Under the pieces are notes generated by a model. That model searched no databases. It was not told the DNA's origin and saw only the letters and a list, made by a program, of their open reading frames with translations. DNA of 64,000 nucleotides, taken from NCBI GenBank assembly GCA_006386115.1, contig VFIW01000054.1:69610-133609 (forward strand), given 5' to 3'. Made by a program: the position numbers and the translations under genes. This document shows positions 6,901-38,900 of the stretch, piece after piece (position 1 is the stretch's first letter; each line of letters opens with the position of its first letter). Origin of the DNA: Globisporangium splendens. Its lineage: Eukaryota > Oomycota > Peronosporomycetes > Pythiales > Pythiaceae.

Positions 6901-8491
6901 TGTCCTTCATGCGTTCCCCTGTTTGGCGAAGGCATTCTTCACTAACGACCTCAAGATTGTTTGCCGCAAGGTCACACAACTCGTTGACGACGAGGCGTCG
7001 TACTTCCCAGTCGGGGTCACTCAGACGAAGAATGAACTCTTTCTCGATCAGGCTTCCAAGGTCAGCTTTGCGTTGCCAGATGATCGCACACACCTGCACC
7101 ATCTGTAGACGAATTTCTTTGCTCACATCGCGGAATCGCCCCAGAAAGTCGCGAAAGTTCTTCATGTACTGATGGCCATAGTCCGCGTGCGAAGACGCAA
7201 ACAAGCGTCCCATCAGTGCGATCGCCTCGGAACGAGTCGCGACCTCGTCCACTTGAAGCTGCATGCACACATTCGGAAGCACATACAGCAGGAGCGACGG
7301 GTTGATCTTATGCACTTCGTAAATGAGCGTGTAGACGTGCTCTTTCAGATCCGATGACTTTTGTGCAGTGAGACCAGATGGCGCGTCCACAAGAATACTG
7401 TTGAAAAAGTGCGAAAGATGGCTCTGAAGCTGATCACTGGAACGACGAATAACTTCTTGTGCCATGTGGTACGGACCGCGCTCGACTTCGTCGCGAAGTG
7501 ATGAGTTTTGTGCACTCGAAGCCTCACTCTCACCAGCACTAGCGTTAACCAATGGCGCCAAGAGTACATCGAGCAGTGGCTGCTCAACCATATCGCTGTC
7601 TTCGATGCATGCAGTCGTAATGGTGATCATCAGGTTTTCAATCTTCGCCGAGTGTCCTTTCCGAATCGCGTCGAAAAGCGCCTTGAAAAGTTGCACAAGC
7701 AGCGGCTCTTCGCCTTCTTCCACAGTGAACTCCATCCCAACGAGAAGTGAGCAGGACTTGGTACTCGCAAGACTTTCCAAAACGTGGAAATAATGCGCAT
7801 TACAGGACGTGTTCGCTTCATCGCCCTCGTCATTGGCTTCAATCGCTAGATTCCGGATTTGTTCGATAATCAGCTGGAAGGCATCATAGAGCTCCTCGTT
7901 TGACGTGAACGGCATGTCTGGCGCGTACACTCGAAGTAATTCCACAAAGCAGCACGCTGCCAGTGATCGCACATTTTCCCCATTGTGCGCCAGAATTCGC
8001 TCGTGCATGAGCTCGGAACACAACAGTTGCAATCGCTCCAGTGGCACGCTTTCATCTTCCTGGTGCTGATTCGGCATCTTCTGGAGCACCGTCCACGTCT
8101 GCTTCAGCCGTCGCGAGAGCTCGGACGCATTCGCGCCTGCCTGTGCTAAATACGACCCTGTCAAGATGCTTCTCTGTAGCGCAGCCTGCTTCTTTTTATC
8201 TGCTGGGCTTGCTCCGAGACGAAACGCGTCTGCATTCGCCATGGTTCTCGAGGATCTCCGCATGCGGCTTTCACCCTCGTTCTCTTCATGCTTGGATTTG
8301 TCTTCTTCGTTGTGTTCCTCCTCGCACTCGCTGTCGTCGACAGCATCTTCTGCTTCAATTTCTTCTCTGTCAGCCACGCGTTTGTTGCTTCGCTCCACAT
8401 TCTTGGACGCAGACGCCGCATGCCGCGTGCGCACAGGGCGGGTCTCCATCGCGTCCGCATTCGCGCTGCGCCTCTGCGTCGTCGACGCCAT
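3956..8491 (-). CDS. PDS5: Sister chromatid cohesion protein PDS5
   Basis: Two exons, 8491-4415 and 4327-3956, joined in phase 0 across an 87-bp intron (donor GTAAGC, acceptor TTTTAG), giving 1,482 residues. PDS5 is a HEAT-repeat protein that binds cohesin and controls its loading, release and acetylation. The family is shown by the N-terminal block ENVRSLAACCFVELLRVYAP followed by DMPFTSNEELYDAF, matching the conserved core VR-x-L-x-ACC-x(3)-LR-x-YAPD-x-P. About 1,200 residues of helical HEAT-type sequence follow. There is an acidic loop near residues 820-845 and a basic, Ser/Pro-rich tail in exon 2 with short SP/TP sites, as in other PDS5 proteins. Length is near the family norm of about 1,200-1,600. 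The ATG at 8491 precedes a disordered Arg/Glu-rich leader of about 100 residues. Confidence 0.9.
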
Positions 8492-12518: not shown

Positions 12519-15500
12519 TTAGTAGTAATCGCTTCCTGGGCGGGTATCCTGTGACATCGGAATGTTCTGCGACTTGAAATCGTGATCGTAAGCAAACGAG
12601 TCTTGCGACATCATAAACTTGTCCGCCGACGACATTTGGCTGAACGACTGCGTTTGCGCGGCCTGAGTAAACGGACCATCCATGCCAATTGACGATTGTG
12701 TCATGCCATCCTGCGTGAGTGGATCCATGTGGCTCTGGAAGCCACCAGTGCGACGGGAGCCACCACGCTGTTGCTGATGAACACCCGCACCATAACGATG
12801 AGGACCTGGAGGAGGATACCCAGCGGACTGGTGGGCAGATTGGTGGTGTAACTCATCTCCATCACCTTGGTCGTAACGTGGATCGAATCGAGAGTCAAGA
12901 GGAGGAACAGGAGCACGCTGGCGCACATTACCACTCGAGCGATTTCCACGTCTGGACGGCTTCGCATTCGGGAACTGCATGAACGAAGGTTGCAAGTTGT
13001 TCAACGGACCTTCCATGACCAACTGGTTGTCGCGGTAATGGTTCAGCAGTCGATTCCACAACTCTTGCTTCGCCAGCACGCGCGGGTTCCCGAGCAAGAT
13101 CACTCCGTACTTGGCTCGCGTCAAGGCAACATTCAAACGACGCTCATCGCTCAAGAAACCAATGCCCTGGTTTTCATTCGAACGGACACAGGAAAGGATA
13201 ATGATATCCTTCTCACGGCCTTGGAATGAGTCGACACTCGCGACTTCGACATCCTTGTACAACTGCGAACGCATCGAGCCATTACGTTGCATGTAGTTGA
13301 CAACATACGCACGCTGACCTTCGTACGGGGTGATCACACCGATTTGCGACGGCAGCACGCCAGCCTTCAAGAAAGTCGTGACAATCTTTTCCACATTGCT
13401 CGCTTCCGTTCGGTTCAAGTAACTCGTGCCAGACGAACTAATCTCTTCTGCGCCGAGGCAAATGTAGAAGAAAGTTGGTCTGTTTGGGTTTGGCCATGGG
13501 AAATCGACGTTCGTGAGCTGACGCTCGGCCGTGCCAACTCCATTCTGCAACTCTCCTTCATAAAACGTGTTCGATGGGAACTCCGAGAGGCACGGGTGCA
13601 TTCGGTACTGGACACGAAGACGGAACGGACGGTGATCGAGTTTCAGTAAACGATCAAAGAGCGACTGGTTGAGCCCCGCAGCAGCTGCTTTCTTGTTCAT
13701 CACCACCGGACCCAATTGACAATGGTCGCCGACCATAACCACATGCTTGGCACCTTGGACAATTGGAATCAAACACTCGGGTTCAGTCGCTTGGGTCGCT
13801 TCATCAATGAGGACTTGGCGGAAACGGAAGTTCGATAGACGTGGGTCGCCCGCACCGACACAAGTCGTACAGATAACGTCGGCCGCTTGCAAAAGCTCAC
13901 GTTCGGCTTGACGCTTCAGTGCCTTGAATCGCTTTTCATCTTGAGACGACAACTCACCTTGATCGTCTTTCAACTGCGTCAACTTGCGGAGATCAGCTTT
14001 GTCCGGTGAATCAAGTGACTTGATCATCGCATGGAGAGACAAATGCTCCACAGAAGAAGCCACAGCTTCGCGACTTTTTGCCGCCAGACGCACGACTTTC
14101 AATCCCGTGGCACTAATCTTCGCCGTCAGGTGATCCACGGCGATGTTACTAGGAGCAGTGACAAGCACTTGGCCCATGTTCTGCTTCGACATGTGGTAAA
14201 CAATTGCTGCCGAAGTGACTGTCTTCCCTGTACCAGGAGGTCCTTGAATCAAACTCAACGGTTGGGAGAGCACGCCTTTCACGGCATCCATTTGCGGTGG
14301 ATTGAGTTCCGGCAAACCTGGCGCAGAGATCTTGGTGCCAATCGAACGCGGGACACGCAACGCTTGCATCTCGACATCATGACCAAGGATCTTGTGGTAC
14401 AAGTAGCCCGTGAGCGACGTGTCATCCACGGCGAACGTCTTCAGCGCTGCCTGCATACGATCGAACGATGTCGCTTTCCACACAAAGTCGACCATGTACC
14501 CATCGGTGATCTCGAGTGGCGCGACATTGTTGCGCATCTCCAATGTGACTTCCGATTCTTCCATGCGCAGCACATGGCCCGTGCTTTCCCAGTCTTTTCC
14601 GTAAATCATGGCCGCCGTTGGACCGAGACGAAGACGAATTTCGTCACCCGGCACGAGGCGAAGATCGGAATCCGGACGTGTGCACGTGAAAATCGCATTG
14701 CGCTTCTTGTTGAGACCCGTGTCCCATCGCACCATCACGCCCTCCTGCGTCTGCGCTTCTTTCATTTTCTTGTCGTAATCGGACTCCATCTTCACCAATG
14801 GACCAAAAATGTTCTGGTACTGGTACCCATCTTCGTACTTTGGCACGACGGGATTCGGTTCATCGTCGATGCCAGGACGATCGAGGTCTTCGACCACCGC
14901 CAACGGGTTGTCACGCCAGAGCTCTTCGAGCTTTGCGATTTGCGTCGACGTGATTTGACGCGAACGCAGCTGTTCATGCTCTGATGGGACCTTCACGAGC
15001 CACGGCAAGAACGATCGGTCGTCAATGAGAGGCAGCCACTGCGACATATCCCAGCTCATATCCTTCAGCGCATTCATCTGCAGGCACGGGTCGCGGCACA
15101 GCAGCACGACGACAGAATCCTGTTTCGCAGGAATGAACCCAAGTAGAAACACGTTGCGGCATCCGCAATTGTAGCATTCCAGCACCGTCTCGCCCAATGG
15201 CGATTCCGGGTGCAGCGACACTTCCTTGTTCTTGCTGCGCACCAAGTGCTGAATGATATGCGATCCCGACGTGTTGCCACGGGAATTGCAAAACCACTTG
15301 TCGCTCGCAACGCATTTCACAACAGATGCCGGATCGTGCAGCCCACAGTACGCGCACGCATGCTTCGGCAGCTCCTTCGATGTGTAATCCAACTGGTCAT
15401 CGTCGCCTGTTTCTTCAAATGTGAGGTGCTGGAACTCGTCGGCAATGGACGCGTCGTCCATCTGGCTCTGGAACGTGCTGTCGGCGTCGCCGTGGTGATC

Positions 15501-15794
15501 AAACGAGCCGAGACCGACGCCAGAGAACGCACCATCGTCCTGTCCACTTGCGCTTCCGAGTCCGCGGTGCGCTTGCTGCTGCGACTGCGGCTGGTAGTGG
15601 TCGTAGAAGTCGTACTGCGAGTGGTCCGCCTGCGTGGCCGGCTCGTCGCCCAGCGGATCCACGAACGCGTAGAGCGACTGTGACTGCGACGCCTGCGTCT
15701 GGAAGCTCTGCGAGGCCTGCGTCTGCAGGTACTCGTGGTGGCGCTCGTCGTAGTCGTCGAACGCGCCGCCGCCTGCGAAGTGGTGGTGGCTCAT
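12519..15794 (-). CDS. UPF1: UPF1/RENT1 RNA helicase, nonsense-mediated decay
   Basis: A 1,091-residue single-exon superfamily 1 RNA helicase, the central ATPase of nonsense-mediated mRNA decay. The Cys/His-rich UPF2-binding domain starts near residue 144 (CAYCGLHD, later [10 protein letters not shown]). Helicase motifs are all present: GPPGTGKT near 518, DEAT near 663, [14 protein letters not shown] near 728, [14 protein letters not shown] near 853 and [10 protein letters not shown]. Both tails are SQ/TQ-rich: the N-terminus repeats TQASQS, and the last 50 residues carry several SQ and TQ pairs. In animals SMG1 phosphorylates such sites, so similar control is likely. Length matches human UPF1 (about 1,120). 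The ATG at 15794 begins a Gln-rich leader. Tudor-SN lies 516 bp upstream on the same strand. Confidence 0.97.
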
Positions 15795-16310: not shown

Positions 16311-19031
16311 TTAAAAGCCTTCGTCGTCGGACTCGACGTCGCCGTATCGCCACATGCACACGCGTTTCTTCTTGGCCGCATCCTGAGCCTTGAGAAGGCC
16401 GTCGACGACCGCTTGCTGGTACGGCGCGACGGTCTTGAGCCCCTTGCGGTCCGTACGCAACACGCCGGCTTCCAGGAGCGTCTCCGACACGCTTTGGTTG
16501 TTCTTGTACAGCGACACCTTGAGGCGGTTCTGGTCGTCCGTGCCGTGCACGCGCGCCGACAATGTGTGTCCCCACGCGACTTCGCCGAGCATATGTGCAG
16601 CATCGTGACCAAACTCTTCAGTGGCAGGAAGCGACTTAATGAAGCCAAACACACACTCCTTCGCTTGTGGTGGGAGCTGGATCACGTTCGCGTCCAGCGG
16701 TCGCAATCGGTTTGCCGGCAAAGTCGCGACGTTGCCGTAGTCGATGAAGCGCAGCCGTGCGCTGCCGTCTGGATGCACGTACTCGATGCGCGCACGGTTC
16801 CAGAGCGGTCCATTGCCATCGTCAAAGAGACCAGCACAGATTCCATTGCGGCGCACTTCAAACGCCTTTCCGTTCGGTCCGTGGAGGTGCGTGAACTCCT
16901 TCATCTTTTCTTCGACTTGCGCGCACGTGCGGTCTGCGTGGTTCTGGATGAAGAAGTGGGTACCGTCCACGATCTCCGAGAGTTTCACGACCGCGAGCAC
17001 ATCGTCAGCCTTGCGGTTGGATGGAGCCGCTTGTGCTTTCGCGGCAACAGCCTGCGCGTCGTAGTTCTTCCAGTAGTTCTTCTTCGCTTGCTTGGCCGCG
17101 TCTTCCGAGCGTTGCAAGAGCGCTGCCGAGTTGGTACGCTCGATCGAGAACGCGTCCACCCACGCGAGTCCTTCACTCAAGAGCAGCGAGCCAAAGTTGT
17201 TGCGGTCTTCCTTAGCGCCATTGATAAACAGCGGACCGAACGCATTGCCACCACGGTCCATGTCTTCGATCTCAATGATCACATTGCGCTGCATGATCGT
17301 GCGCTTCGTGAACATCTTCGACTCCTCGCCAAACGGTTCAGCCGCGGCTGCGATCACACCTTGACCACCGAAACGGGTCGGTTGTGGGCATTTGATGCCG
17401 GCAACGACAAAGTTGATCATGCAGTTCTCCTTTGGCACAAATAACTTCACGCGCGTGCCCGAGTAAATGTACTCGACCACCGCGCGAATCACCTTCTCGC
17501 GGGTCAAGAATGGCAAATATTGCTTGGCCTTGGTCGCGTCAAAGCACAAGTCCGTGAAGCGGCGCTCGGGGGATTCCTTGCCAGAGTACATACCCTTCTT
17601 CTGCGTCTGCGCCTTCGTTTCCGCGGTCACGAGGTCGTCGTAGTACCCAGACTTTTCTTCGTCAGGGCGGTGGCGCACGACTTCGGCAAACCCGGCGGCG
17701 ACGACATCCACCGCGATGTTCGCACCCTTGGCACCAGGCACGTTCTTCTTCGCCGCGCTTGGCTCCAAGAAGATACTCGCAAACGTCATCAACGCGTTCT
17801 CGCCCAACGACGGATTTGTCTTTTCGTACTCGACTTCGACCGTCACGTTCTTGCCGATCGCGCGGTTGCGCAAGAATTCCTTGGCGTCCAACGCAAATGG
17901 CGCGTTTGGCTCGTTGCGACGCGCATTGCCGATGCGAGGAGCACGAAGCGAGGACAGATAAATGCGCTTCTCCTCGGCCTTCTCAGGGACGTACACGACA
18001 ACGCAATCGCCACTGATCACTTCAACAACGATAGCACGCAAGTGCTTCTCCGATTGCAGTACTGGCGCCTGGTAGTCCTTCCACACACGGAGGTTGGCAG
18101 CCTTGGCTTCCTTTTCGGCATTGCGCATCGCCGTGCGCGCGGCCGTGCTCGTGAACGCGCTGCTCCAGTCCGCCATCTTGCCAAGACCTTGCTTCAAGAG
18201 CTCGACACTGATGTTTCTTCCCGAACTGTGCACAACGCTTCCGTACAGGTTGCCGTACTTGTCGACGCCTTCCAACTTCAACTCCACGTCACGGTGCAGC
18301 AAGCGCATTTCGGTAAAGTGCTTGGCTTCACGAGAGTATGGCGCTGGCCCAGTCGCTTCGATAGGAGGAGCACCAGGCGCGGCGGCTGGAGGCGCAATGC
18401 GAGGGCACTGCACGCCCGCCAGACCAAAGTTCACGATCTGCATCGTTGGACGCAGGATCACACGCATCGCGGCGCCGTCGCGCACCGACTCAACGATTGC
18501 AGGCACTAACTTGCCCTTGTACTCGGCCAAGAGGCTCTCGCCATCGGCGCCCGTCCATTTCACGGTCGCGTTCGAGAGCTCGTCCGTGTCTTTGTACATG
18601 CCCTTCTTCTGCGAGATCGCGACTTCCTCGACCTTGAGCATCTTCTCGTGGTCTGCACAAGCGCCGTCGCGGGACTGCTCCACAGTCTTGACCTTGGCGT
18701 AGCCCTCACGGGCGACGATCACACACAGGTTCTCTTCCACACCGCGCGCGTTCGCAGGCAACCAGACCGAGCCGAAGTCGCGGTTGATGGCGCCGACGCG
18801 GTACTCGACCTTGAAGCGCACGGTCTTGCCGATCGCCGTCTTGCGCAGGAACTCGCGGCTCGCCCACGCGTAGGGCTCGTTGGTCTGCTCGGCGGAGCGC
18901 GCGAGGCGAGGCGCCTGCAGCGACGCGAGCGTGAGCACGAGCTCCGGCGGCGGACCGTTGGTGGCGGCGCCCACGAGCACGAGCGTGTCGCCCGAGATCA
19001 CGGCTTTCACGGTCGCGGTGCCAGACGCCAT
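16311..19031 (-). CDS. Tudor staphylococcal nuclease (Tudor-SN / SND1)
   Basis: A 906-residue protein in one exon, with the family's layout of repeated staphylococcal-nuclease-like (SN) domains and a Tudor domain inserted in the last. SN repeats begin near residues 5 (ATVKAVISGDTLVLVG), 157, 327 (RAIVVEVISGDCVVVYV) and 504 (IRAVVEYIYSGTRVKLFV). The Tudor domain (about 714-785) includes CAGLFDDGNGPLWNRARIEY and ARLRFIDYGN, whose aromatic and Asp/Asn residues form the methyl-arginine cage in relatives. Known roles are RNA binding, stress granules, splicing and RISC-linked decay. The ATG at 19031 (AACATGGCG) was chosen because it opens directly on SN1. Frame upstream to 19193 is open but gives a non-conserved leader. 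Confidence 0.95.
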   Translation of the reverse strand: MASGTATVKAVISGDTLVLVGAATNGPPPELVLTLASLQAPRLARSAEQTNEPYAWASREFLRKTAIGKTVRFKVEYRVGAINRDFGSVWLPANARGVEENLCVIVAREGYAKVKTVEQSRDGACADHEKMLKVEEVAISQKKGMYKDTDELSNATVKWTGADGESLLAEYKGKLVPAIVESVRDGAAMRVILRPTMQIVNFGLAGVQCPRIAPPAAAPGAPPIEATGPAPYSREAKHFTEMRLLHRDVELKLEGVDKYGNLYGSVVHSSGRNISVELLKQGLGKMADWSSAFTSTAARTAMRNAEKEAKAANLRVWKDYQAPVLQSEKHLRAIVVEVISGDCVVVYVPEKAEEKRIYLSSLRAPRIGNARRNEPNAPFALDAKEFLRNRAIGKNVTVEVEYEKTNPSLGENALMTFASIFLEPSAAKKNVPGAKGANIAVDVVAAGFAEVVRHRPDEEKSGYYDDLVTAETKAQTQKKGMYSGKESPERRFTDLCFDATKAKQYLPFLTREKVIRAVVEYIYSGTRVKLFVPKENCMINFVVAGIKCPQPTRFGGQGVIAAAAEPFGEESKMFTKRTIMQRNVIIEIEDMDRGGNAFGPLFINGAKEDRNNFGSLLLSEGLAWVDAFSIERTNSAALLQRSEDAAKQAKKNYWKNYDAQAVAAKAQAAPSNRKADDVLAVVKLSEIVDGTHFFIQNHADRTCAQVEEKMKEFTHLHGPNGKAFEVRRNGICAGLFDDGNGPLWNRARIEYVHPDGSARLRFIDYGNVATLPANRLRPLDANVIQLPPQAKECVFGFIKSLPATEEFGHDAAHMLGEVAWGHTLSARVHGTDDQNRLKVSLYKNNQSVSETLLEAGVLRTDRKGLKTVAPYQQAVVDGLLKAQDAAKKKRVCMWRYGDVESDDEGF

Positions 19032-20027
19032 GTTCGTATGGGGAGTATGCGCAGGAAGGGGGAGGGAGGGAGAGAGGGAATACGTGCCACGTACGCTCCT
19101 TTTTCGGATATCGCGACAAAAGAATCGCGATCTTTTTTGTGCGTGTGGGAGCGAAAATGAATTGCGACTGGACACCAGCATGGCTGATGGCAATTCATTT
19201 AGAGGTATACTTTATTAAAGGTAATATTTGGCAATTATAGACACATGTGGACCAATCGACGAAATGTGGGCGACACAGGGAGACACCAGCATGGATGCAA
19301 CGTGACCAGATATGGGTTCACAGCGCGAATCACATGGGTGAGTGCATTGTGTGCAATTACTGTGCTCTATGCGTTCGTACTGACATGCGGGCGAAGACTG
19401 AGTGGGGGCACAGTACGATTCAGCAAAGCAAAGCATTCGTGTGAGCGAACCGCCTCTTTTTTGACTTGCGGAGGCATTTAAATGGCTTCGTATACAGTAG
19501 TAAAAATACGGAGCCTGTGGCGGTGCACTTCAGTGTGTAGACAGGGACAGCGTTTGTTACCAACGGCCCCACCTTTGCATTCTCGTCAGCGGCCACTTTC
19601 GCATTATACTTGTGCAGAGGTGTCTCGTACAAAGAGGCATGTAAAAGATCGCCTCCATTACGTGCGCTAATCATAAGGAAATGATGTGTGCAAAATGAGA
19701 TGGTTGAGGCGTTCTGGGAGTTGCGCTGTGCAATTGGCGCGAAACGAAACGCCTTTGACTTTTAGAAATTTCGCTCGAGGTACGTATCTTGCATAATTTC
19801 TTCCGCTTCAAACTGCATTTTAAAAGTAGTTGCACGTTGAGGGGAGCAGCGCAACCGCCTTCTTCGCTGTTTGGTGCGGAAGTTACGGACTGGAGCAGTG
19901 GACGCGGGTAGGGGTAATTTATCCAAAGTGCGCACTGAGACCACTGCGCCTCCCTAGGTTCGCACTGTTTGTGACAGAGGGGGGAAAAGGAGAAGCGGAG
20001 TGATGGTCGATCGCTTCTATTAGAGCG

Positions 20028-20646: not shown

Positions 20647-23600
20647 ATGGACGTGCGACAACTTGAGAATACACCAACTACTTCCACATCCGACACAAGC
20701 GCAGCCAATACACGCGCGCAAGAATCGGAAGCGTCAGGCGGTGCGAATTCGACTAGTGCAGCTACTGCAGTTGACGCAACTCCGTCGAAGAAACGAAAAG
20801 GGGACGCAGGGAGCAGTATCCCTATTGCGGCGGAAGATAGACCGTCAGCCAGCATCAGCAAATCGAGTGTGCGCGACCGCCTCTTGCCGTCGTTGTTACA
20901 GTGCGTTGTGACATCAGGAGGCGAAAATCCGATCCTAGCGGCCCTCGGTGGAACTCCGCGTTCGTCTTCTGCGTCAACGTCTGATCTTCCTGAGCCAGAG
21001 CTGTTGAACCTGAACGATAGCAGCGACGCTGGCAATATGACTCATGATGAGGCGAGTGTTGCTGCTCCTGCGTCGTCTCACAATGCTGCGTCAAATCCTC
21101 TAGGTAATGCTCATTGGTTCATTGCTGGTTGTGCTGCAATCGTAACTCACTCTGTGCAAACATGCACAGGCAAACGCAAGCGAGTTGGCGAGGAAGCAAC
21201 CACAAGCGAGAAGAAAACAGAGTTTGTAGCGTATGCTCGGGAACACATTCACAACCAAGAGGCAGGCGATGAAGGGTTTTCTATCGATCCGTCTGACCGA
21301 GCAGTTGAGCACCGAGCCAATAAGCTGGTTCGCCGCGAGATTCTGATTGCGTCCCCTGCTGCGAACGATGATGACGACTGGGATGGAAGCACACATGACT
21401 CTGTTGCGGAGAACTCGCAGGAAGAGTTGAAACCAGCAGAACACTTTGATATGCAGCCTGTGGACATGATCCTCCATGTCTTTTCGTTCTTGGTGTCTTC
21501 GGATGATTTCCCGAATATGACTCAAGTATCGAAAAGGTGGCGCGAACTGACGAGCCGACGATCACTTTGCCGAGCTCTTCCAAGCACATTGCCAGATGGG
21601 TCTGTAAATTGGTTGAATTTTCAAAACTTGGGCATCAAAAACAAGGGCACGGAAGGTACTTGCTTCAAGTGTCATCAGCGTTCAAGTGGTAAAATTCTAG
21701 CCATGAAAAAGGCTCGAGTGTTTCCCAAGGTATGTGGTTCGTCTTGGAAGTGCGAACTATTTTGTTGGTACTCAACATCATCTTTTCTTTTTCTGTAATT
21801 GTAGGGCGAAGGTGTTCCCTACTACATGCTAAGAGAACTCGCTGTTCTGAAAGGGATCAAACATGATCACATCGCGTCCTTGGAAATGATTAGTCTAGCG
21901 CGTGACGAACTCCATGTGTTCTTCCCTTATGTGGACAAGACATTACACGAGATCATCAACCCAACTGGCGATCCAAATGGCGGAAGAACGTTGCCAGAAC
22001 CAGTGGTAGGTGGTGTTTGTGTTGTATCAGTTGCAACCTTAATTGATATTCATGCTTTTGGTATGCTATTCTTGATCAGATTCGTCGACTGCTTCACCAA
22101 CTTTTGGATGCTATCGCGTACTGCCACCGCCGTGGTGTGCTGCATCGCAACTTGAAGCCGAAGCATCTTCTTATCAAAACTTCGAACCCAGACACACTTG
22201 GTATGGTGTGCAGCCATTGTCGTGTCGTTGCATCATGACTGTGCTAATTGTTATTCATGCATGTGAACGTAGACGACTCGGTTCTTCAGATCTCTGATTT
22301 TGCCTTGGTTCGTGCAACTGGAATTCCACGAAGAACTTATACGATGGAAGTCGTGACTCTGTGGTATCGTCCACCTGAGATTCTGATGGGAGTTCGAGGG
22401 TACTCGTCAGCTGTGGATATTTGGTCCGTTGGATGCATCTTTGCGGAGATGGCTCAAGGAAAGCCGCTTTTCACGGGAATCTCTGAGATCGACCAATTGT
22501 TCCAGATATTTAGCAAGCTTTCGACGCCAACTTCCGAGACGTGGCCAGGCTTTGCATCGCTGCCAAACTATCATTTCGAGTTTCCGAACTGGAAACGTCG
22601 ACCTCTGAAGCGTTTGTTCCCGAATATTTCAGATTTGGGGATCGATTTGCTTACGAAGCTGCTCATTTACAATCCTGACCAACGAATCTCAGCCGAGGAT
22701 GCGCTCCGCCATCCGTACTTTTCCAGCGAAGTGCCAGCATTTTCACCGTTGGTACCAAAAATCCCCATGGAGCAGATGGCTTACACTCTGTCCCGAACAC
22801 GAGCAGCAAGGACGCCAGAGCATGTGGAGCTTTTCCATTCGTACTTGCGTCAAAGTGAGCTTGACTCTTGGAAGGAGATCAAATATTTAAGGTTCGTTCT
22901 TCATTTACTTGGCTTGCATTATCCGGCATTCGACTCATATTTTCATTTCCGCAGCCGCCAGAAAACCCTCCGTCCAGCCCACCGGTCTATGCTGGTTGAT
23001 TGGCTAATTGAAGGTATTCCACATATTGCGCTTCAGTTTTGGGTTGAAGTCCAATTGTTAAACATCTTTCTTGTCGTGTGCAGTCGTAGATGTCTTCGAA
23101 ATGTGCCTTCGAACAGCATTTCTTGCAGTCAACTACACCGACAGGTTTTTGGACATCGTGATGGTGAAGAAAACTCGCTTTCAGTTGCTCGGGGCTACCT
23201 GTTTGCATGTTGCATCCAAGTGCGAGGATGTTTCGTACATTGGGGTGGAAGATTTGGCGATGTGTGCAGATAACGTGTACACATCAGCTGAAGTGTTGAA
23301 GATGGAAGAAAAGCTGCTGAATACGCTCAATTTCACGCTTTCCGTGCCAACAGGTGGGTTTTTGGATGCGTATAGTAATGAAGTGTTGGATTGTGTTTTG
23401 CGTATGCCTGTTCTCATCTCATGTGTTTTGCTTCCGCTTGTAGCACTGGATTTCCTGAATATTTACCAGCGAATGATCCCGCCCATTCAGAAGAAGACGT
23501 CGATGTTGGCTCACTACCTCCTCGAGTTGGCGTTGCAGGAGTACCAGTTTTTGAAATATTTGCCATCGGTAGTAGCGACGTGCTGCTTGTCGATGGCAAT

Positions 23601-23886
23601 GTACACTATTGATGGATTTCCAATGGTAAGTCTTTGCCGTGGTGTCGTGCTTTATTTTCTCTCGTTCATCTAATCCCTGCTACTTCCAATTTCGTAGACG
23701 AAGGAGCTTGCGGATTCCTGTCGTTATGTTTGGAACGATCTGAAAGAGTGTATGATGGAGCTTCAAACTTTGTACTCTACTTCTCCGTCCAACAACTTGG
23801 CCGTGATCAAAAAGCGCTATTCGAAGGCAGAACGCTGCCAAGTCGCGACAGTGCTGCCGCCGACAACGTTCAATATGGCGTTCTAA
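20647..23886 (+). CDS. F-box / CDK-like pseudokinase / cyclin triple-fusion protein
   Basis: Nine exons: 20647-21103, 21170-21729, 21805-22005, 22080-22200, 22273-22891, 22955-23013, 23084-23353, 23444-23625, 23698-23886. All introns are GT-AG and the frame is continuous, giving 885 residues. Residues 1-240 are disordered with KKRK and KRKR stretches. An F-box-like segment spans about 246-290 (PVDMILHVFSFLVSSDDFPN, then SKRWREL). A CDK domain follows: degenerate glycine loop, Lys332 (AMKK), PSTAIRE-equivalent GVPYYMLRE with Glu350, HRNLKPKHLL (428-437), DFA (455-457), T-loop RTYTMEVVTLWYRPPEIL with Thr470. The HRD Asp is Asn430, its partner Asn is His435 and the DFG Gly is Ala457, so phosphotransfer is unlikely. 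The cyclin part (653-885) has HRSMLVDWLIEV, Lys718 and Glu747, the salt-bridge pair of cyclins A/B. I infer an SCF adaptor with a built-in CDK:cyclin pair. Confidence 0.9.
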
Positions 23887-26962: not shown

Positions 26963-29900
26963 TTAGCTCGTCATTTGGAGCATTTCGAACCACTGACGCA
27001 GCGAGTCCGAGAGAATCTCGGGCAGCAGCGCCGAGTTCGGCAGCAGCACGTAGTACGGGAACGGGTAGTTCTCCAGGTACGGCACCATCGTCACCTTCCC
27101 CTTGGTGAAGGTCACGCTCTTGGTCTCCAGGATCGAGTTCTCCTGGTTCTCGTTCTGGTCCACGACCAACAACACGATCAGCTGCTGTCGCTCGAGTGCC
27201 GTCTCGATCAGTTTCTTGATGCGCATGCGGCCATCGGTATCGAATCGCCCATCGGAGATCAGGAACACGATCTGCGTAAACTCGACGTTGCCAGCGTTGC
27301 TGCTCGCAGCCGTGGACGCCGAACGCGCAGTCTCGAGGATCTGCAGGATCGCATCGAGCGTCTGGATCATGTTGGTCTTCTTTTGCTGGAACCCAAACTG
27401 CGCGATCACGCGAGAACCAGCGTCGTCCGTGAACGGCGTGTCGAACGCGTGCAGCAACTGGATGTCCTGGCCAAACTTGACGACAGAGATCTCACCGACT
27501 TCGAGCTGCGTCATGCCCTTGCACAACGTCGTCATGGCTTCGAGTGCCAGTCGCCCAGCATGGTTGTCGGCCATGGACTCGGAGTCATCGATTGCGACCA
27601 TGACCTGGTACTGACGCTTCGAAGGCCGAGTGCGACGCATCCAGATCTTGTCCTTGCGGAACTGACTCGCGATGTACGGGATCACCTTGCGCATATTGAT
27701 GCGCTTACCCGTGCGGAAATCGCCCTCGAGCTTCGCGCGCAGCATCGGCTCGAGCACCAGTCGCAATTGCTCGCACAATCGCTGCGACGACGCCGACGTG
27801 ATCGCGATGTATTTGGACCACAACTCAGACCCGCGGAGTGCCAGCGCACTGTCACCACGCGACCAGTTTGCGATAAACTGATCGAGTTCGTCACGAAGAC
27901 CCGTCACTTCGTCAGGCGTCAGTAGCTTCGGAGCCGGACTCATGTCTTCTTCGTCCTCATCTTCGTCGAGCTTACGCTCAAACTCCGAGAGTTCGGTGGA
28001 CGTTGTTGGGAACTTGTCTTCCTTGTGCTCCTCCTCGTCATCCAGGTCCATGCTCACGTCGTCCTTGCGACTCGCGTCGTCGGCCTTGTCGCGTTTGTTT
28101 TCATCGCTTTCAGGATCTGACATCTTGTCATTGACATCATGATCACGTTCGGCAAAGTCGTCTTTCCTGACAGGCGGCTTCTTTTCGTCCGTCGACTCGT
28201 CTTGCTCATTGGATGCAGCCTCGTCCTCGTCAACCTCCATCGCCGTCGCGCCGTCCACGTTTGCATCCTCGTCGTCCTTCTTCTCGTCGTCATTCTCCTC
28301 ATCCTTTTCCTCGCTATTGTTTTGGTTCATGACTTGGTTTTCGTCCGCCGCCGCAAGCGCGTGCTCGACGTCGTCCATGTTGGTGTCGTCATCGTCCACA
28401 AACTCAGCGGTCGTCATCTCCTTGGCCTCGTCCTCCTTGACCTTCTGGTCAGGACCCACATCCTTCTTGTCTTCTTCATCGTCGCCACGTTCAATCATTT
28501 CAACACGACGCTTCCAGTGCTCCTGGGTGTCTTGTGGGTTTCGGTACGGGTTCGGTTCATTGCGCTTTCGGTTGCGACGCTTTTCGTCCTTCTCCTGCTG
28601 CTTCTGGTTCGCATCCGAGACCTGCGACATCGGCTTCCATTCCTGGTTGTCATCGTCGCCGCTGCTCTGCTTTTGCGCCGAGCTGCTGCTCTCGTTTTGC
28701 TCGTCCTGGTCGTTGTCATTACGGCTTGGGTCGTTCATGTCTTCATCTTCCTTTTCTTCTTCGTCCTCATTCTGTTCCAGCTCGTCTTGACCGTCCTTGG
28801 ACTGCGTACCCGCGACCGTAGACGACGATTTGTCTTCAGGCGTTGCATCGTCTTGCTCCTCTGGCTGGACGTCAGGCTCATCTTCTTCAGCCCCTTCGTT
28901 TTCATCGTCCAAACCGCCGGCACCCGTTTGAACCGCGCTGTCGAGCGGCTCATCCTCTTCTTCTTTGTCAACCTCTGGCTCTTCGCCATCCTTGGAGGTT
29001 TCGTCCTTGCCGTCACTGTCGTCTCCGTCTTCCTCCATGGCGGCATCGTCTTCCGGCTTGTCCATGTCTTCGTTGTCGTCTCCCTGGTCGTCGCCATCGT
29101 CACCACCGTCGTCATCATTGTCGAGCTGCATGTTCTCAGGCAATTCGTCACCTTCGTCCTTTGGCTCGTTCTCTTCTCCTTCTTGACCGTTTTCGCGGTT
29201 CTGTGGATCGGTCTCGTGATTCTCTTCGTACTTGTCCTCAAAATCTTCATTCACTTGATCGTCCTTGTCATCACCATCTTCGTCGTCGTCGCCATCGCTT
29301 CCTTCGTTCTCATCCGTCTGCTTGTCTGCCTGAGGCTGCTGCTTAGAATCGTCTTCTTTCTTGGACTTGTCGTCATCTTTCTCTTTCTTCTCATCGTCGT
29401 CGTCCTTATCATCCTTGCCACGGATCTCGTCTTCAATCGCTTGGCCTTCGACCTTGGACTCTTCCTCAAACTTTTCATTTTCCTTGTCGATGTTATCTTC
29501 GTCGTCGTCAGAGTCTTCGCCCCACATCTTCTCATCGACGACGTTTTCATCATCTTGGTCAAAATCGCCCATTTCACGATCCAGTTCTTCTTCGTCGTCG
29601 TCTTCCTTGTCGTCATCCTCGTTCTTTTCGTCCTCGGGGAGGTCTTGCATCGTCCCTTCAAAGTCATTCTGCATTTCCAGTCCAGTGTCTTCCGGTTGAT
29701 CTGGTTTCTCAGGCGGTTCTTCTTGCTGATCGCCCTTCAAGCCCAGCAATTGTTCTTCATCTTCGATCTCATTGCTCACGTCCTTCTTCCCTTCCCCTTC
29801 GCCCATACCAGTACCATCGACGTCATCCTGGAAACGCGTCTTGCCATCACCGCCGGCTTCGCCACCTTCCTTGTCCTCTGTGCGGCAAAAGCCGTGCTGG

Positions 29901-32900
29901 TACAAGTTGCGGAAAATACGGATCAGCACAAAGTCCAGCTTCGTGACACTCTTGTGCGCTACGAGCACGTCGACCAAGAGCTGCCGACTGATCGCACGCA
30001 CGTCCAGCAAGCTCGGTTCCAGACGCTCCAACAGCGTCAGCGAAGACACAAACGCGTCCTTCCAGTGCGGCGACGACGTGCGCGCCAACTGCTGGTATTG
30101 CTTGGAAAGCACACTGAGCAGCTCGGAGAACTGCGACGCGATAAAGTTCACGCGCGAGTCCTTGATCGCGTTCGTCAAGCGCGACAGCTGGTTTCGAAGC
30201 GTCTCGTCGTTGCTCTCGTCATCATCATCAGCCGACTTGGCTTGGCTCAGCTTTGTCAGGTCTTGGATGGCCACGAGCACGGTCTCGACAAGCTTATCGT
30301 AGCCCCTCACAAACGACGCCACAGATTCGGTGACCTCTTCGTCGCCGTCACTCTCGTCCATTGCAACATCATCTCTACTCACAGAATTGTGCTGCAGCGC
30401 TTGGTCCTGTTCGATCGCACGGCCAAGCGCCACAATAATGTCGTCAAAGCAGAGCGACGGCGCCACTTGAGCGAACGAAGTCGACAGATCGGCCACGTAC
30501 GTCGCAATCTCAGCGAAACGAGTCGCGTTTGCCTGCAACGTGTCCACTGCAACTGGAAGCACCACGTTTTCGCGCGATGCAGTGCTGCCACTCAACGGAA
30601 GTGCTGGCGACAACCCGTACACACGGTTGCGTGAGTTCGCAAAAGTTGTGCTACTAAGCTCTCCGGTAGTCGTATCGTCTTCACCATATCGAGCCGCTTG
30701 CGGCGAAATCGCTGGCACTCCGAGAGCCATCGGCAAGCCGTTGCTCTCGGCAAACGACTTGGAAATCGCGTTCAGACGATCGAAGATCAAGCCAAAGGTC
30801 TGCTTCATGGACACAGCCAATGGACTCGATGCCGCTTGCAGCACCTGTGCGACCACGATCTCGAGCTCCTTCATTGGCTTCTGCAGACTCAGAACCGACT
30901 CGCATTGCAGCGTCTGGCGTTGTAGCACGGTTTGCAAATCCAAAGTCGTCACGCTGTCTTGCGTTTGCTGCAGGAACGATGCGCGGAACACCTTGAGCCG
31001 CTCAAGACGACTGATTCCATCAATGAACGCTTCATGGTTGAGCGACGCCGCATGCAGCAACTGTCGCTGTTGCAGCATCCCGTGGAGCATGTTCTCTGCG
31101 TACCCGTTCATGCGATCGACTTCGCTCGACGACAGATCATGAGAGAAGCTCGTGAGAGCGCTGAATCGCAACGAAGTCAACTGACTGATGAAGCGGTAGT
31201 AGTACGCGTCCGCACGCTGCCAGAGCCACAACGGCGAGTCCTTTGGTGCCGTCGCAGACTCCGCTGCACTCACTTCCGCGGCCTTTGCCTTCTTCTTCGA
31301 GCCCATGCGCTTGTCCTTCTTCGACTTCTTCCTCGATCCACTCGCGGTAAACCCAGTAACGGCACCGTCGTCAGCAGACACTAAGTCACTCAAACCATCA
31401 AGCTGGATGCAGTTTTCCACATCGGGCACATCCAATTCGAACAGCAACTCCATTTGCTGCTGCTGAGCTGGCAAATGCGCGCGGTGGTACGACATGCCTT
31501 GCGCCTTGAGCTCGCTCAAGAGATCAATGAGCGCTTTCTTCTTGGAGCCCTTTGGCATGTTCTTGGCGTGCTGCAATTTGTGCATGCGGTAGAAAATCGT
31601 CTCGCAGAGGTCTTCACAAAGCTCGCGTGGTTGTTGACGAGCAGTCACAACGTCGCGCGCGAGAATCTTCTCGTGCGTGTACTTGGAAATACGCTTTGAC
31701 AGCACCGGGAGCTTGTCCAGGTAGGCGGACGCAGCCGTCAATGGCGATCCGCTCAATTCCTGTTCAATTTCAGGGTGCTGTGCGTCGTGCACAAGCAAAA
31801 GAACTGAGGCGCGAGGTGGCGGCACTTCTTCTTCCTCCTTTTTCATCGCAACGACCTTCTTCTTCTTCGGTTCGTCGACCTCCCGCATATCCACATCGCC
31901 TTCTTCGCCCTCCTGGACTTCGACATCGCCACTATTCTCAGCTTCCTCCTTCTCGTCGTTCTTTGGCACAAACACACCATCGTTCACGTCGTCCAACTCG
32001 GCGCGCGTCGCGTGGATACCCACGAACCCGCCTTCCTTGCTGATACCGTTATCGGTCGACGCATCGATGATCGTCTGCATTGGCACCGTGAGCACGGCGT
32101 CGTAGTCACGCACGTACTTCATGAGTTTGCGATGCGATTTCTCAGCCGATTCCGCCAACGAGTAGTACGTCTGCTCATCCCAGCGGCAGATCTTGACGTA
32201 CTCGATCAACTTGCGCTGGATCGGAGCCTTGAGACTGCTCCATTGACGACCCATGTAGCCCAGGTGCTGTTCGTAGTAGCGGTACAAATGGTAGAGCATC
32301 GTCGCGAGCGCGTATGTCGACTTCTTAGCGGCAGCGGTATTAGCATTGCCACTGGCATCAGATGACACCGCTTGCACGCCCCAAAACTCCATGAACAGTT
32401 GCGCGCAGAACGAGTAGATGATGAGCAAACGACTCTCGTACTGACCGATCGAGCACGACCGCACGTACGCATCGAGCGTCGAAAAGAGCTCACTCATCCA
32501 CTTCTGCTGCTGCTCGCTGTGGCGCTCCGAGCCGATCTGCTTGACAAGCTCTTCAACCTTGGGCTGCACGAAGACCCACTCGGATAAGTGGTTCAGGTGG
32601 AGCCACTGGAGCTCGTTCTTTGTTCCGTTCACGTTGAAGAAGCTACGCACATCCTCCGATGGCACGATGACATCGGATTGATCCGCTTCAAATTGCGCCG
32701 TCAGCAGCGAGTACATGCTGAACCACGTCTTGTGCGCCACAAGTCGGTGCTGTCGCTCCTTCACGTGGAGCAAGTGCGGCCATGAGTAAAGCTCGAGTTT
32801 GCGCCAGCGCGTAACGAGCGCCGAGAGCGCGCCAAGCTCGCTTGCGATCGAGTACTGACGCGCTGCGTACGCCTCCCATTCCTGCGCCTTGCGCAGCAAC

Positions 32901-35900
32901 AATTCAACACCCGTGAGCGTTCGCGCAAGCGGCGAACTGATCTCAAAGTTGCGAATCCGGTCTGCGATGAGCACGAGTTGCTGGAGAATCGCATGGTCGG
33001 GCCAGAGCGCGAGAAGCGATTGCGCCTTGATCATCAGGTCTTGCAGCGGACGCGCGACGAGCACGACTTCCTTCACGAACGGATCGCGGTGGAAGTCAAT
33101 GCCACGGAGGTAGTCGCTGTTCAAGGCGTGCAACGACGGCACGGCACTTCGCGCATCACTGCTGCTAGTACCCAAGCGGAACTGTACCAAGGACGCCGCA
33201 AAGATGCCCGACCCGACGATCGCAGTCTCCATCTTGCTCGACTCCATCGTGTTGATCGTCTTGCGCATCATCACGGCGAGCGAGAATGCACGCGCGAACG
33301 CATGCACGATCTCGCTTTTCGTGACTTGAGCCTTCGAACAGCCGCTTGCTGCGTACAGCTTGATGTGTGCCTCACACAGCCGTTGGACCGTCTTGTCCGT
33401 GATCATCACGTCAGCATCTGCCGCCGACGCCATCGAAGACGCCAGTGCGTCTTGCGCACCACTGGCAGCAGCCGCTTGCTCGGGCGAGAGGAACGCCTGG
33501 AAATCGTTAACACTGTAGTCTGGGAACTGCTCTCGGTACTCCTGCTCAAGCAGTTGGTCCTCGGACTCGATCTCGAGCGTGCGCACCTTGTACTTGAACA
33601 GTTCCTCTTCAGCACGGCGCTTCTCGGCTTCGCGCTCTTGCTGTTCCTGCCATTTCACCAAGAACAGATCGAATAGTGCTTTGCTGCACTGGATCGCATC
33701 CCCTAAAAGCGCCGAAGCGGCGTCCGACGAGAGCACGACGTCGCGCGACAGAACGGTCTCGCGGAACAAAAACTCGAGCTTCGCGAGTGCCACGTCCAGC
33801 AACGCGATCTCGCTCTTGCGCTTCTGAGATGCACCGCCGAACACGAGCGAAGTCGTCTTCGTGCCGACCGTCTGAAGTAGTTTCTGGATCGCACGCCATG
33901 GGTCCACACTGTTGTTGCTGTTGTCGTTGTTTTGCACGACCACCGACGACGGAAATGCCACAAGGGAGAGCGCCAACTCGCGCTTTTCCTGTGCCTTGAC
34001 GGTCTGTTCCTGCAGCTGTCCATAGATCGACCACACCAGAAGCGCGACACCTTCCTTCACGGCAAAGATTGCCGACGAGATCGGTTCCAGAATGTCCTGG
34101 AAACTCGCACCATACTTAGTCTCGAGTTGCGCCACAAAGCTCTCTGACGTTTGCTGGAACATGTCCAACTCACGCAGCACTTGGTGGCATTTCTGTTGAC
34201 TTGTGAGCGGCGTACGCACTGTACTGAGCAGAGCCAGCATCTTGCTCGCCGGCATGATCGTCTTCTGGAAGCGCAGCAAGTCGCGGAAGATCTCACCAAA
34301 CTTGGACGTGACCACAGGTTTCAGCTCTTCATTTGTGGTCGACGGCTCGTACCGCTGGATCGCGTACGCAGACACCGCCATGACGTCCTCGTACACAGTC
34401 TTAAATTCTTCCTGTGCGCGCAGAGCCTTGGATTCTGGTGCTGAAGGCAACGGGTTAATACGATCGATCGCCGAGTCTACCGCGTTCTGCAGCGTCAGCA
34501 TGGCCAAGCGGCTCAGCAGCATCTCTTTCTTCACGAGCGGCTTCGTCACAGGGTCCACGGGCGACGCTGGCACGAGCAGAACAAATCGCCAGAGACCCAA
34601 CAGCACAAAGCTTTCTCCGCAAGACAAGGCGCTCACGCTTTCGCTCACAGAAGAAGACTTTGAGGTACTAAGAGTGGCCAGGAATGGCCGCACAAACTCG
34701 TCAATCGTACTGGCAAACGTCTCGTCGCTCGAATGCTTCAGCGCCACAAGTAGTGACGAGTGGTTCGCACCACTATCCTTGTCCATGGAACGAAGCAACT
34801 GCTGCACATTCGTCCACTGCTCCTTGTCCTTGAACGTGGCCTCAAACGCGAGCACCGTCGACACAAACAGCTCCATCAGCAGCTCCCGCGCCGTCGCCAC
34901 CATGTGCGAACTCGTCTGAGACGACGACGCATTCTTCGTGAAGTACTGTTTGATCTTGTCCAGACGCAGCGAACGCACTTGGGCCTCAATTGTGCCACAC
35001 GTCGATTCGTGGAGATCCACTTCTGCCACACTTTTCAGCACCACGGCACTCTGCACGTTCTGGAAAAGACGCGGGAGTCCCTCGACGGCGTGGATTTGTT
35101 CCTCTTCCTCACTAGTAGCTGCGCGCTTTCCACGCTTGCTGCCTGCTTGGCGGAGCTTCTTGTGAGTATCAAACGTGTCCAACGAGATCATGTCCATGTG
35201 ATTGAAGCTGTTGCAGCGCAAGAACTGGTGGAACCCAAACAGCACGGCGTTCAAGTGGGACTTGACGACGCCCACGAATGTATCCAATTCAACGCAGAGG
35301 TCTTGACGCTCTTGTTTCGTCGTCGCGTTCGCATCACCAGAGGCATTAATGAACTTGTGGCCGCACCAGACAATGTCCTGGTACGCATAGAAACTCGCAG
35401 GGTCCCGCATGCCGAGCGTCAAGAGGTCGTCAATGAGCGCATCCAAGTCATCCAGGACACTGGCGACATCGTGCACGACACTGATCAAGAATTGCTCTTG
35501 TGCTTCGTTGTCCTTGTCGTCGTTGCTGAGTCGGCCTAGCTGGTACTGGTTCACGACGTGCACCAGTCGACTGATCGCATGCAGTTCGCGACGAGCGAGC
35601 GCATGTTCGAGCAACGGACTCAATTGGAATTGCACCAAGCGCTCCATTAGCATCGAGCTTTCCTTCATGCCAAACAGCAGGATCGGCGCGTCCTTTCCAA
35701 TGCGACTATCTTCTTCGCTAAGCAAATCCACGTGGTTCTCAGCGCCACCTTCGATCTCCGAGAGGTACAACGTCTTGTTCGAGATCAGCTCGGTCACCTC
35801 GGTTTGCTTTTCCCGCAGTTTCTTCAGCAACATACTCGGAAGTTTGTAAAGCTCTTCAGCCATTTTCGCATGCGGTTGTTGCTTCGTGTCCACGCTTCCG

Positions 35901-38900
35901 CCTCTGTTTGCTGCTGACTTCTTTGCGTTCGTGTGCTGTTGCGTCAAGTACGAAAACGCACACAGCGCATACAGAATCTCTTTGCGCGCCGCGACGTCGA
36001 CGAAAAACAGCGACGAGACATCGAGGCGTCCGGTTTTCATCGCCACCTCCATCGACGCAACACCTCCAAAGAGCAGCGCCAGAACGTCCACGACACCATC
36101 CATCGAGCTGTCACCATTGCCTGCGTGCTGTTGCATCAACGGTGAAAAGATTGCATTTCCCTTCATGTACGTCTTAGTCAAGCGATCGAGCAAGTAGCGT
36201 GCATTCCAGAGCTCTTTGCTCGTTGGAAGTAGCGAGTGGCCGCCATGTTTCCACAGCACATCCTTCTTGGATCCGCAGCCAATAAGCTTTTCGATCATGT
36301 CTTGAATGCGCTGGACCATGTCAACGACCTTGTGCCATGGCTCGGTCCACTTTGCCCTGGCATTACCGCCGTCCAAGTGGGCACCGAGGCGCTGCATAGT
36401 CTTCTTGGTCCATTGCCAATGAATCAGGAAATGGGTCCAGTCGAACGTGCTGCTACGGAGCTGAATCGAAAGCTCAAAACGATCACGCAGTGCTGTCTTC
36501 ACGAGCTGCGACGTCTCCTTGGCATGAGAAGACGCATCGTCCACATCAGATGGCTGCACGTAGCTGGCCACAAACGCATCAAAGGACTGGAAGAACGGGA
36601 ATACCAGGAACACGAGCTCGTTTCCCACGTTTGATCGATCGGTCTGGTACCTGTGGATCGCATACGATTGCTGCAACACCGAGTACGTTGTGAGATCCAT
36701 GTTGTCGTTCGCTGAAGCGTGCGAACGTTTCTTCTTTTTATCGCTCGTGGTCGTCAGCGCGCGATCGATCGATTGGTACTGTTCCTGCTCGCAGAACCGC
36801 AACCATTCGCTTCCATCCAGGATCTGGAGCTGCTCTTGCGCATTGAGAATTGACCCCCAAATCGCTTCCACGCGGGTCTTTTCATCTGAGTTGGTCGCCA
36901 TGAAGGCGAGCACGACACTGCAGACTTGCTGGAACACCGCGTCGTTCGCGCTCAAATACACTGGGTACTTGTCCGCTGCACCGGCGAATTTGTGCTCTCC
37001 GATAATCGATGTCAGTTGCTCCATGAGCGTACGCATTTGAGTGGCAATGGCCACATACACGTCGTTCTGCAGTAGCGACTTCACAAAGCGACTCACGAGC
37101 TCCGAGGAGTGGATAAGCGCTGGCGAGTGCTGCGCGAGTGTCGCAACCTTCTCCAAAGTGAACAAGAGGCGGTCCGAGCTGGACGCTCCTCCAAACGACG
37201 ACACCGACACTTGCACGATGCGGCGCAGCGCGAATGGAAGCAGCGTGAGTCCCAATGGGCTGCTATCAGAAGAATCAGTCGTCAAGAAATCGCTGGAACT
37301 CAAATGCGTCTTTGCCTCATCCAGAAATTCGGCACGATACATCACGTTGGTTTTCAGCTGCCCGCTTCGGTTATCCAGCGACGCAAGCCACGTGTGCTCA
37401 CACTGCTCTTGCGTCGTGGCAGTGGCCGTCGCGAGCGACGTGTTGCTCGCGAGACACGAAAGCAACACGTCGTCACTCGTAGGATCCGCATTCAGCGTCG
37501 AGAGCGCGAAGAGGTACTCGACGTACGCGTGATCACGCTTCAGCATGACCGTCTCTGTCTCTTGGCAGAGCTCCAGCGTCGACATCGACGTCGGGAACAC
37601 GCGCTGCTTGAAGGGCATCGTCGCCGAAGCCGCAAGCGCTGACTGGAACGTGCTCAAAGCTTCCATCTCCAAACCTAGTTGCACGAGGAGCTCGTTACCG
37701 TAAACTCGGCGGAAGGCATCGCCGATCGCGACAATGGGGACAATGCCACGGTTGATCTCAGTAGACGCCAGTTGCGACCAGTTTTCCAAGTGCCGTCTAT
37801 TGATGCGTGCAAAGCGCGCACCTTGTGGGTTCGAAGCCAATGACTCGAGTACACGCTCGTGGATGCTCTGGAACGCTCGGCCGAGCGCAAAGCCAGGGAT
37901 CCCGCTCGCACTCGCAACCTTGATCAAGTCAATACGCTGTTCATCTTCCTCCAGCAACGAGATTTCGACACATCGGTTGCGCATCGCGCGCGAAACTTCG
38001 CCGAACTGCGCATCCATCGCCAAGAAGATCCGGAACTCCGGGTGTGGTCGGATCACGCGAAGCTTGCCGTCGATCACACCGCACTCATTGATCAGGAGCT
38101 CACCTCCGGTTTCCATCAATGAGTTCAAACGATCGAGCACCGACGAACTGCAGAAGTTGACATTGTCCAGTAAGATCCATTCGCCCTTCTCCATCGCTTG
38201 GATCAGCGTGCCATCAACCCACTCAAAAGACGACGAGATAGATGCCGACTTGCTCAGCGCGACGACCTGACCGATCTCTTGCTCGAGGACTTGAATGGAA
38301 GCCAACAATGCGCTGGCATCGTTGTAATCGCCCGATTCCGATGCTCCAGAAAGCGTCGCCATTGCCTTTTGCAGCGACGACAGCAAGTTGCGCAACAAAT
38401 CAATGAGAACGTCATCGAGCTGGCCCTTGGTCAACTGCATGCGCTTGCCGCTGCCCGACCCTTCCTGGGCATCGCGTTCCCGCTTGCAAAGCGCCCACCA
38501 CGTACCGCTCAGTTGCTTCACTTGCTTAAGCATCAGCTGCGCTTGCTTTTTTGTCCCCCCCTTGGCGTGAGACGATGATGCGAGCACAAGCGCCTGCGTG
38601 ATTTGCTCGTAGATGCCAGCGACCTTGTGCTTGATCTCGCGCGCCTTGCGGCCAATGTCGACTTGCTCAAAACAACCGAGCAACTCGGTCGCATCAGTTC
38701 CGGCACTCATACCTAGCTCATGCAATGTGTTGCCACTCAATGCCGCCAGTAGACGCACAGCCGACGTTTTTCCACTCGCTGGTGGCCCCACAAGAAGCGC
38801 TGGCCAGTTCATGTTGACACAGTGCGCCAAAGCCTCCATCGGTTTGAGCAGGAAGTTGAACAAAGGCGGCGACACGCGTTGGACACGAAGCGCTTGGCGG

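Follow-up and report, generated by a model that had tools for sequence, protein, structure and literature searches.

Why should a single oomycete gene encode an F-box, a domain shaped like a cyclin-dependent kinase (CDK) and a complete cyclin, all in one polypeptide? Such a gene lies on the plus strand at 20647..23886 of the stretch of Globisporangium splendens DNA analysed here (the window), which spans 64,000 nucleotides of contig VFIW01000054.1 (positions 69,610 to 133,609). We found that the kinase half of its product has lost key catalytic residues, and that this loss is shared by a family of relatives in which the F-box and the cyclin recur. With a probability that we put at roughly 0.55, and by analogy with the animal SKP2-CDK2-cyclin A assembly, the protein would be a dedicated substrate receptor of an SKP1-cullin-F-box (SCF) ubiquitin ligase, which would use a built-in pseudo-CDK:cyclin A module to dock its substrates.

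The gene model runs from an ATG at 20647 to a stop codon ending at 23886 and joins nine exons into an open frame of 885 codons. Exon 1 (20647..21103; residues 1-152 and part of 153), which encodes a low-complexity tail, is followed by exons 2 (21170..21729), 3 (21805..22005), 4 (22080..22200), 5 (22273..22891), 6 (22955..23013), 7 (23084..23353), 8 (23444..23625) and 9 (23698..23886, including the stop codon). The eight introns measure 63-90 bp each and are all of the GT..AG type. A first-pass annotation had proposed this in-frame join to 885 residues, which is confirmed by the intron borders and by complete oomycete gene models that are colinear with it at up to 89% identity (among the 120 of 436 relatives listed, a scope that also holds for the family members named below). 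The same domains are found in one of these, the complete deposited model P0001 of Pythium oligandrum, whose alignment covers 100% of residues 235-885 at 89% identity.

The deposited G. splendens protein P0027 matches our translation letter for letter over residues 1-653. Past this point it leaves out exons 6 and 7 and continues in a different frame of exon 8 (23382..23612), so that the cyclin is missing; the nine-exon model is the better of the two. The possibility that two or three separate genes had been wrongly joined is rejected, since complete oomycete models span the same domains over their full length and since reverse transcription PCR (RT-PCR) confirmed the union of kinase and cyclin in Phytophthora infestans; according to the accessible text of that study, the RT-PCR covered this union only and did not include that of F-box and kinase (PMC3019232). 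Of 80 listed matches in the same genome, from a similarity search that scored 69 of 264 candidates, those outside the locus all have 60% identity or less. An Rfam scan of the window gave no matches, and an NCBIfam scan of P0001 gave generic kinase matches only, all under cut-off.

Along the 885-residue protein, Pfam identifies in order an F-box-like domain (21457..21573; residues 249-287; PF12937, expectation value (E) 7.9e-8), a Pkinase domain of CDK2 type that we consider a pseudokinase (21643..22721, exons 2-5 with introns; residues 311-596; E 3.9e-50), Cyclin_N (22839..23343, exons 5-7 with introns; residues 636-759; E 3.2e-34) and Cyclin_C (23347..23859, exons 7-9 with introns; residues 761-877; E 2.1e-23), with no further domain between the F-box and the kinase. 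All four profiles that the first-pass annotation had suggested searching are therefore matched, and its order and boundaries (F-box-like at about 246-290, CDK-shaped at about 305-600, cyclin at about 653-885) were right. In the structure model of P0001, the predicted local distance difference test score (pLDDT) stays below 50 almost throughout residues 1-245; next comes an F-box segment made of helices (block pLDDT 78-91), then the kinase, then the cyclin. The predicted folds of the two halves resemble CDK2 and cyclin A, respectively.

Concerning the kinase half, its best match among solved structures is CDK3/CDK2, and it has both the cyclin-binding helix glutamate and the activation-loop threonine of the CDK fold. 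The first lies in PYYMLRE (21817..21837), the counterpart of the PSTAIRE helix of CDK2, where the Glu51 equivalent is kept; the second is Thr470 (22341..22343), the counterpart of CDK2 Thr160. The hallmarks of an active CDK, namely the HRD aspartate, the catalytic-loop asparagine and the DFG motif, are replaced by HRN and KPKH within the catalytic-loop remnant HRNLKPKH (22143..22166; Asp127 to Asn and Asn132 to His) and by DFA (22296..22304).

This signature is nearly invariant in the family. Residues were counted in CDK2 numbering over 128 family rows, including the 885-residue protein, that were drawn from similarity listings (120 of 436 and 120 of 131 relatives) and not by motif; rows with a gap at a given column (6 to 26 of the 128) were set aside there. 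Catalytic Asp127 is Asn in 114/114 rows, Mg-binding Asn132 is His in 115/115, Gly147 of the DFG motif is Ala in 118/122 and Ser in the other 4/122, and Tyr15 is Glu in 114/116. ATP-anchoring Lys33 (112/116), Glu51 (111/115), DFG Asp145 (122/122) and activation-loop Thr160 (117/119) are kept. At the four altered positions, 15 ordinary CDK rows have Asp, Asn, Gly and Tyr; 17 such controls had been taken, two of which (P0112 and P0117) bear the family signature and were moved to the family. A single branch with 100/100 support splits 39 family rows from the 15 ordinary CDK-type rows in a kinase-domain tree, whose root serves for drawing only and some of whose branches are long.

These data indicate that the kinase half is, judging by its sequence, a pseudokinase that has probably lost activity. 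Because the catalytic Asp, the Mg-binding Asn and the DFG Gly are gone, it would be a CDK-shaped scaffold rather than a kinase that phosphorylates its catch, and the constancy of the broken active site across the family suggests that selection preserves the inactive state. Ordinary CDKs are encoded separately in the same genome, for example L002, with PSTAMRE, HRD and DFG.

With the F-box-like model PF12937 the score is 32.4 bits (cut-off 24.3), and the domain can be called on this basis. The classic F-box model PF00646 gives 17.9 bits on the full protein, which misses its cut-off of 20.5, and 23.0 bits on the isolated piece, which passes it. Modelled alone, the 73-residue F-box piece has a mean pLDDT of 76.3. 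A structure search with this model returned 46 matches, 37 of whose titles name an F-box, SKP1 or an SCF complex, the best being chains of Fbw7, Cdc4 and SKP2 complexes (best probability 0.99); for one chain of 7b5l, an SCF-SKP2 entry, the fit is 1.3 A across 42 columns (probability 0.99). Searched on its own against solved structures, the piece gave just four weak matches, the best of them (E 0.26) to one chain of 1fs1, an SKP1-SKP2 entry. An F-box fold is thus predicted where the first-pass annotation had placed it, at about residues 246-290, with no single match at E 0.001 or below.

Moreover, the F-box recurs through the family and is not peculiar to the G. splendens gene. Among 49 members chosen from the listed relatives and scanned with Pfam at E 0.01, Pkinase is found in 49/49, Cyclin_N in 49/49, Cyclin_C in 47/49 and the F-box-like domain in 34/49. 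A family F-box model built from 12 F-box segments (threshold E 1e-3) matches 91 of the 107 eligible family proteins, 79 of the 95 outside the training set and none of the 15 ordinary CDKs. Proteins counted as eligible if 65 or more residues precede their kinase domain, a requirement that set aside 23 of 130 family rows. In 75 of the 91 matching members, the end of the match lies no more than 8 residues from where the kinase glycine loop starts. Ahead of the F-box, at 21289-21357, we also observed a short motif with the consensus PSxxVxxRxxKxVxRE...ASP that is common to the majority of the family alignment.

The cyclin half has two cyclin boxes and is of A type, its closeness being judged by score only: against solved structures it reaches 155.6 bits with cyclin A2, 110.0 with cyclin B1, 82.7 with D1 and 75.6 with cyclin F. 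Orthology to cyclin F is unsupported by these scores, which argue against the automatic name cyclin F. The equivalents of cyclin A Lys266 and Glu295, residues that touch the CDK, are K in 106/109 and E in 98/104 family rows, and the cyclin half therefore appears fit to bind a CDK. In the cyclin docking patch, Trp217 is kept in 95/106 rows. In the CKS groove, as named in the accessible text of PMC10318019, Phe213 (119/122) and Phe240 (119/120) are kept, and Leu175 is Met in 98/120. SKP1, cullins and a CKS are all encoded in the same genome.

The first-pass annotation had suggested looking for the gene across other stramenopiles, and the family indeed extends beyond oomycetes. Members are present in Peronosporales, Pythiales, Albugo and Saprolegniales, in the brown algae Choristocarpus and Discosporangium, and in Chrysoparadoxa, Tribonema and Phaeothamnion. 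Hondaea, a thraustochytrid, is represented as well, and so, by divergent members, are the diatom Ditylum and Parmales (one sequence). A search for catalytic-loop words, covering proteins of 0.55-1.75 times the query length with shared exact words, yielded 76 candidates, of which 70 matched at E 10. All 70 were already family members; none is named from ciliates or Theileria, a result that does not show absence. In the kinase tree, P0026, P0029 and P0032 form a Phytophthora-only branch of faster-evolving copies, while P0036 lies outside the tree sample. Two proteins, P0091 (labelled Batrachochytrium salamandrivorans) and P0073 (Durusdinium trenchii), have a metagenome sequence and Hondaea as neighbours in the same tree, a position that makes contamination of those assemblies likely.

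How might such a protein work? In the reading that we favour, the F-box would dock on SKP1-CUL1, and the A-type cyclin of the chain would hold the CDK2-shaped pseudokinase in cis, in the geometry of CDK2-cyclin A. The pair would phosphorylate nothing and would serve as a ready-made docking platform, presenting the usual binders of CDK-cyclin A, presumably CDK inhibitors, proteins with cyclin-docking motifs and possibly CKS, which would then be handed to the ligase for ubiquitylation. We propose an SCF receptor because the single chain resembles the SKP2-CDK2-cyclin A body and because SKP1, cullins and CKS are present in the genome. A ubiquitin-ligase adaptor with a joined CDK:cyclin docking face, the initial suggestion of the first-pass annotation, is still the best reading, although that suggestion had overlooked that the CDK half is a pseudokinase. 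The three-domain architecture, its recurrence, the catalytic loss, the kept cyclin-contact residues and the predicted CDK2 and cyclin A folds are the parts that our data support directly. On a larger scale, it is conceivable, at slightly less than even odds, that an SCF ligase whose receptor is a hard-wired pseudo-CDK:cyclin A pair arose a single time, early in the evolution of stramenopiles. It would be a covalent counterpart of SKP2-CDK2-cyclin A-CKS, and would show that a CDK-cyclin pair can persist over very long times with no other role than that of a docking surface for a ubiquitin ligase.

A number of points weigh against an SCF receptor of this kind. Both the docking on SKP1 and the interface in cis are predictions from sequence. 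None of the 46 fold matches of the F-box piece has E 0.001 or below, and two of them (8bfi and 2iqc) are clearly unrelated. Sixteen of the 107 eligible family proteins have no F-box match at E 1e-3; members below this threshold include the thraustochytrid Hondaea P0057 (E 0.032) and the Parmales sequence P0103 (E 0.11), the diatom member P0105 showed no F-box match, and the F-box of the brown algal P0045 and P0046 is matched by the family model alone, the precomputed Pfam list containing none. The docking surfaces are also altered, with Met210 of the cyclin docking patch changed to His in 79/107 family rows, Asp235 of the CKS groove changed to Asn in 97/121, and Lys237 variable. Finally, no p27-type CDK inhibitor was found in the genome, in a family search that is uninformative, as it gave no match in any control genome either.

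Other functions can be envisaged for the same architecture. The module might compete with real CDKs for CDK inhibitors, docking substrates or CKS and titrate these away, with the F-box serving mainly for its self-destruction on a cell-cycle schedule. Self-ubiquitylation occurs in some F-box proteins, and the residue conservation in the kinase and cyclin halves is equally compatible with such a decoy. The proposal of the 2010 authors that the cyclin part regulates stability, in the accessible text of PMC3019232, also points this way. However, a decoy would need no F-box, yet the F-box ends within 8 residues of the glycine loop in 75/91 members, and this closeness suggests a shared platform; we regard a decoy as unlikely. 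We are still more sceptical of an F-box working outside SCF, as it does in some F-box proteins, within a cell-cycle scaffold unrelated to ubiquitin: the F-box-like model does fit better than the classic one and SCF docking is a prediction, but the isolated F-box model is most like F-box chains solved with SKP1 (E 0.18 and above), and SKP1 and cullins are encoded in the genome.

We similarly give little probability to a trans activator, in which the cyclin half would recruit a separate, real CDK, switch it on and deliver it to the ligase, with the pseudokinase as a spacer. The cyclin contact residues are intact and an ordinary CDK, L002, is encoded in the genome, but the attached pseudokinase retains its cyclin-binding helix and should fill that face first. 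Least probable of all would be an unusual yet active kinase. Lys33, Glu51, the DFG Asp and Thr160 are retained at the frequencies given above, but the catalytic Asp is lost in 114/114 rows and the Mg-binding Asn in 115/115, and retained catalysis is unlikely on this evidence.

If the SCF-receptor reading is true, many stramenopiles own a cell-cycle ligase whose receptor is an inactive CDK-cyclin pair. This would provide a clean natural example of CDK-cyclin complexes acting as scaffolds without catalysis, and a concrete way into the question of how stramenopiles might remove CDK inhibitors.

Elsewhere in the 885-residue protein, two basic clusters, KKRK (20788..20799; residues 48-51) and KRKR (21172..21183; residues 154-157), may be nuclear signals. 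The gene has neighbours on the minus strand of the window: a PDS5-like cohesion protein (4328-8491), a UPF1-like helicase (12519-15794), an SNase-Tudor protein (16311-19193) and an 18.7 kb open frame of 6241 codons (26963-45688), whose scanned 1896-residue N-terminal part matches the AAA and lid domains of midasin.

CDK-cyclin fusions in oomycetes, which the first-pass annotation had mentioned with reserve, are indeed on record. The accessible text of the 2010 P. infestans kinome paper describes four CDKs that carry a cyclin at the C-terminus, a union verified by RT-PCR, and that all have the Asp to Asn change, and reports relatives in ciliates and Theileria (PMC3019232). These proteins resemble ours in having a CDK-type domain followed by Cyclin_N and Cyclin_C on one chain with the catalytic Asp changed to Asn, but differ in that an F-box is listed for none of them: Table 2 of that paper has no F-box among the accessory domains, and the terms F-box, Fbox, F box and SCF are missing from its main text. 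This may be because P. infestans gene models are cut at the 5' end, as seems to be the case for P0032 and P0036, whose positions 1-39 correspond to residues 26-64 of the family model and so begin within the F-box. No description of the union of F-box, CDK and cyclin was found in the openly licensed literature, supplements not covered; in the accessible text of the diatom cell-cycle paper PMC2872877, 'cyclin f' occurs only as 'cyclin family' and 'F-box' does not occur. The union is already visible in deposited names, such as 'cyclin-dependent kinase with F-box domain' (P0023 and P0031) and 'protein kinase domain, F-box domain' (P0011). What is new here is the F-box, added to what the 2010 description listed, together with how widely and how constantly the pseudokinase signature occurs, and the mechanism that both suggest.

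Among known systems, the kinase half is closest to CDK2/CDK3 in both sequence and fold, but the catalytic residues are gone in the family rows. Cyclin F (CCNF) shares an F-box and a cyclin box on one chain, whereas the oomycete cyclin half scores nearer to cyclin A2 (155.6 vs 75.6 bits); cyclin F is not known to have a kinase domain. A further parallel is the SCF-SKP2-CKS1 ligase with CDK2-cyclin A-p27, in which an F-box protein, CDK2 and cyclin A are also physically joined. In animals, SKP1-SKP2-CKS1 and the CDK2-cyclin A-p27 that it holds make up a single body, as the accessible text of PMC10318019 describes. Kinase-dead CDK2 is usable there too: according to the accessible part of PMC7895821, catalytically inactive CDK2 (D127N in the text, D127A in the figure legend) was used in an SCF-SKP2 assembly whose p27 was phosphorylated by added active CDK-cyclin. 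The D127N change is also the one found in the oomycete pseudokinase. The animal assembly is made of separate chains and has the leucine-rich repeats of SKP2 and a CKS1 bridge, whereas the oomycete protein is one chain.
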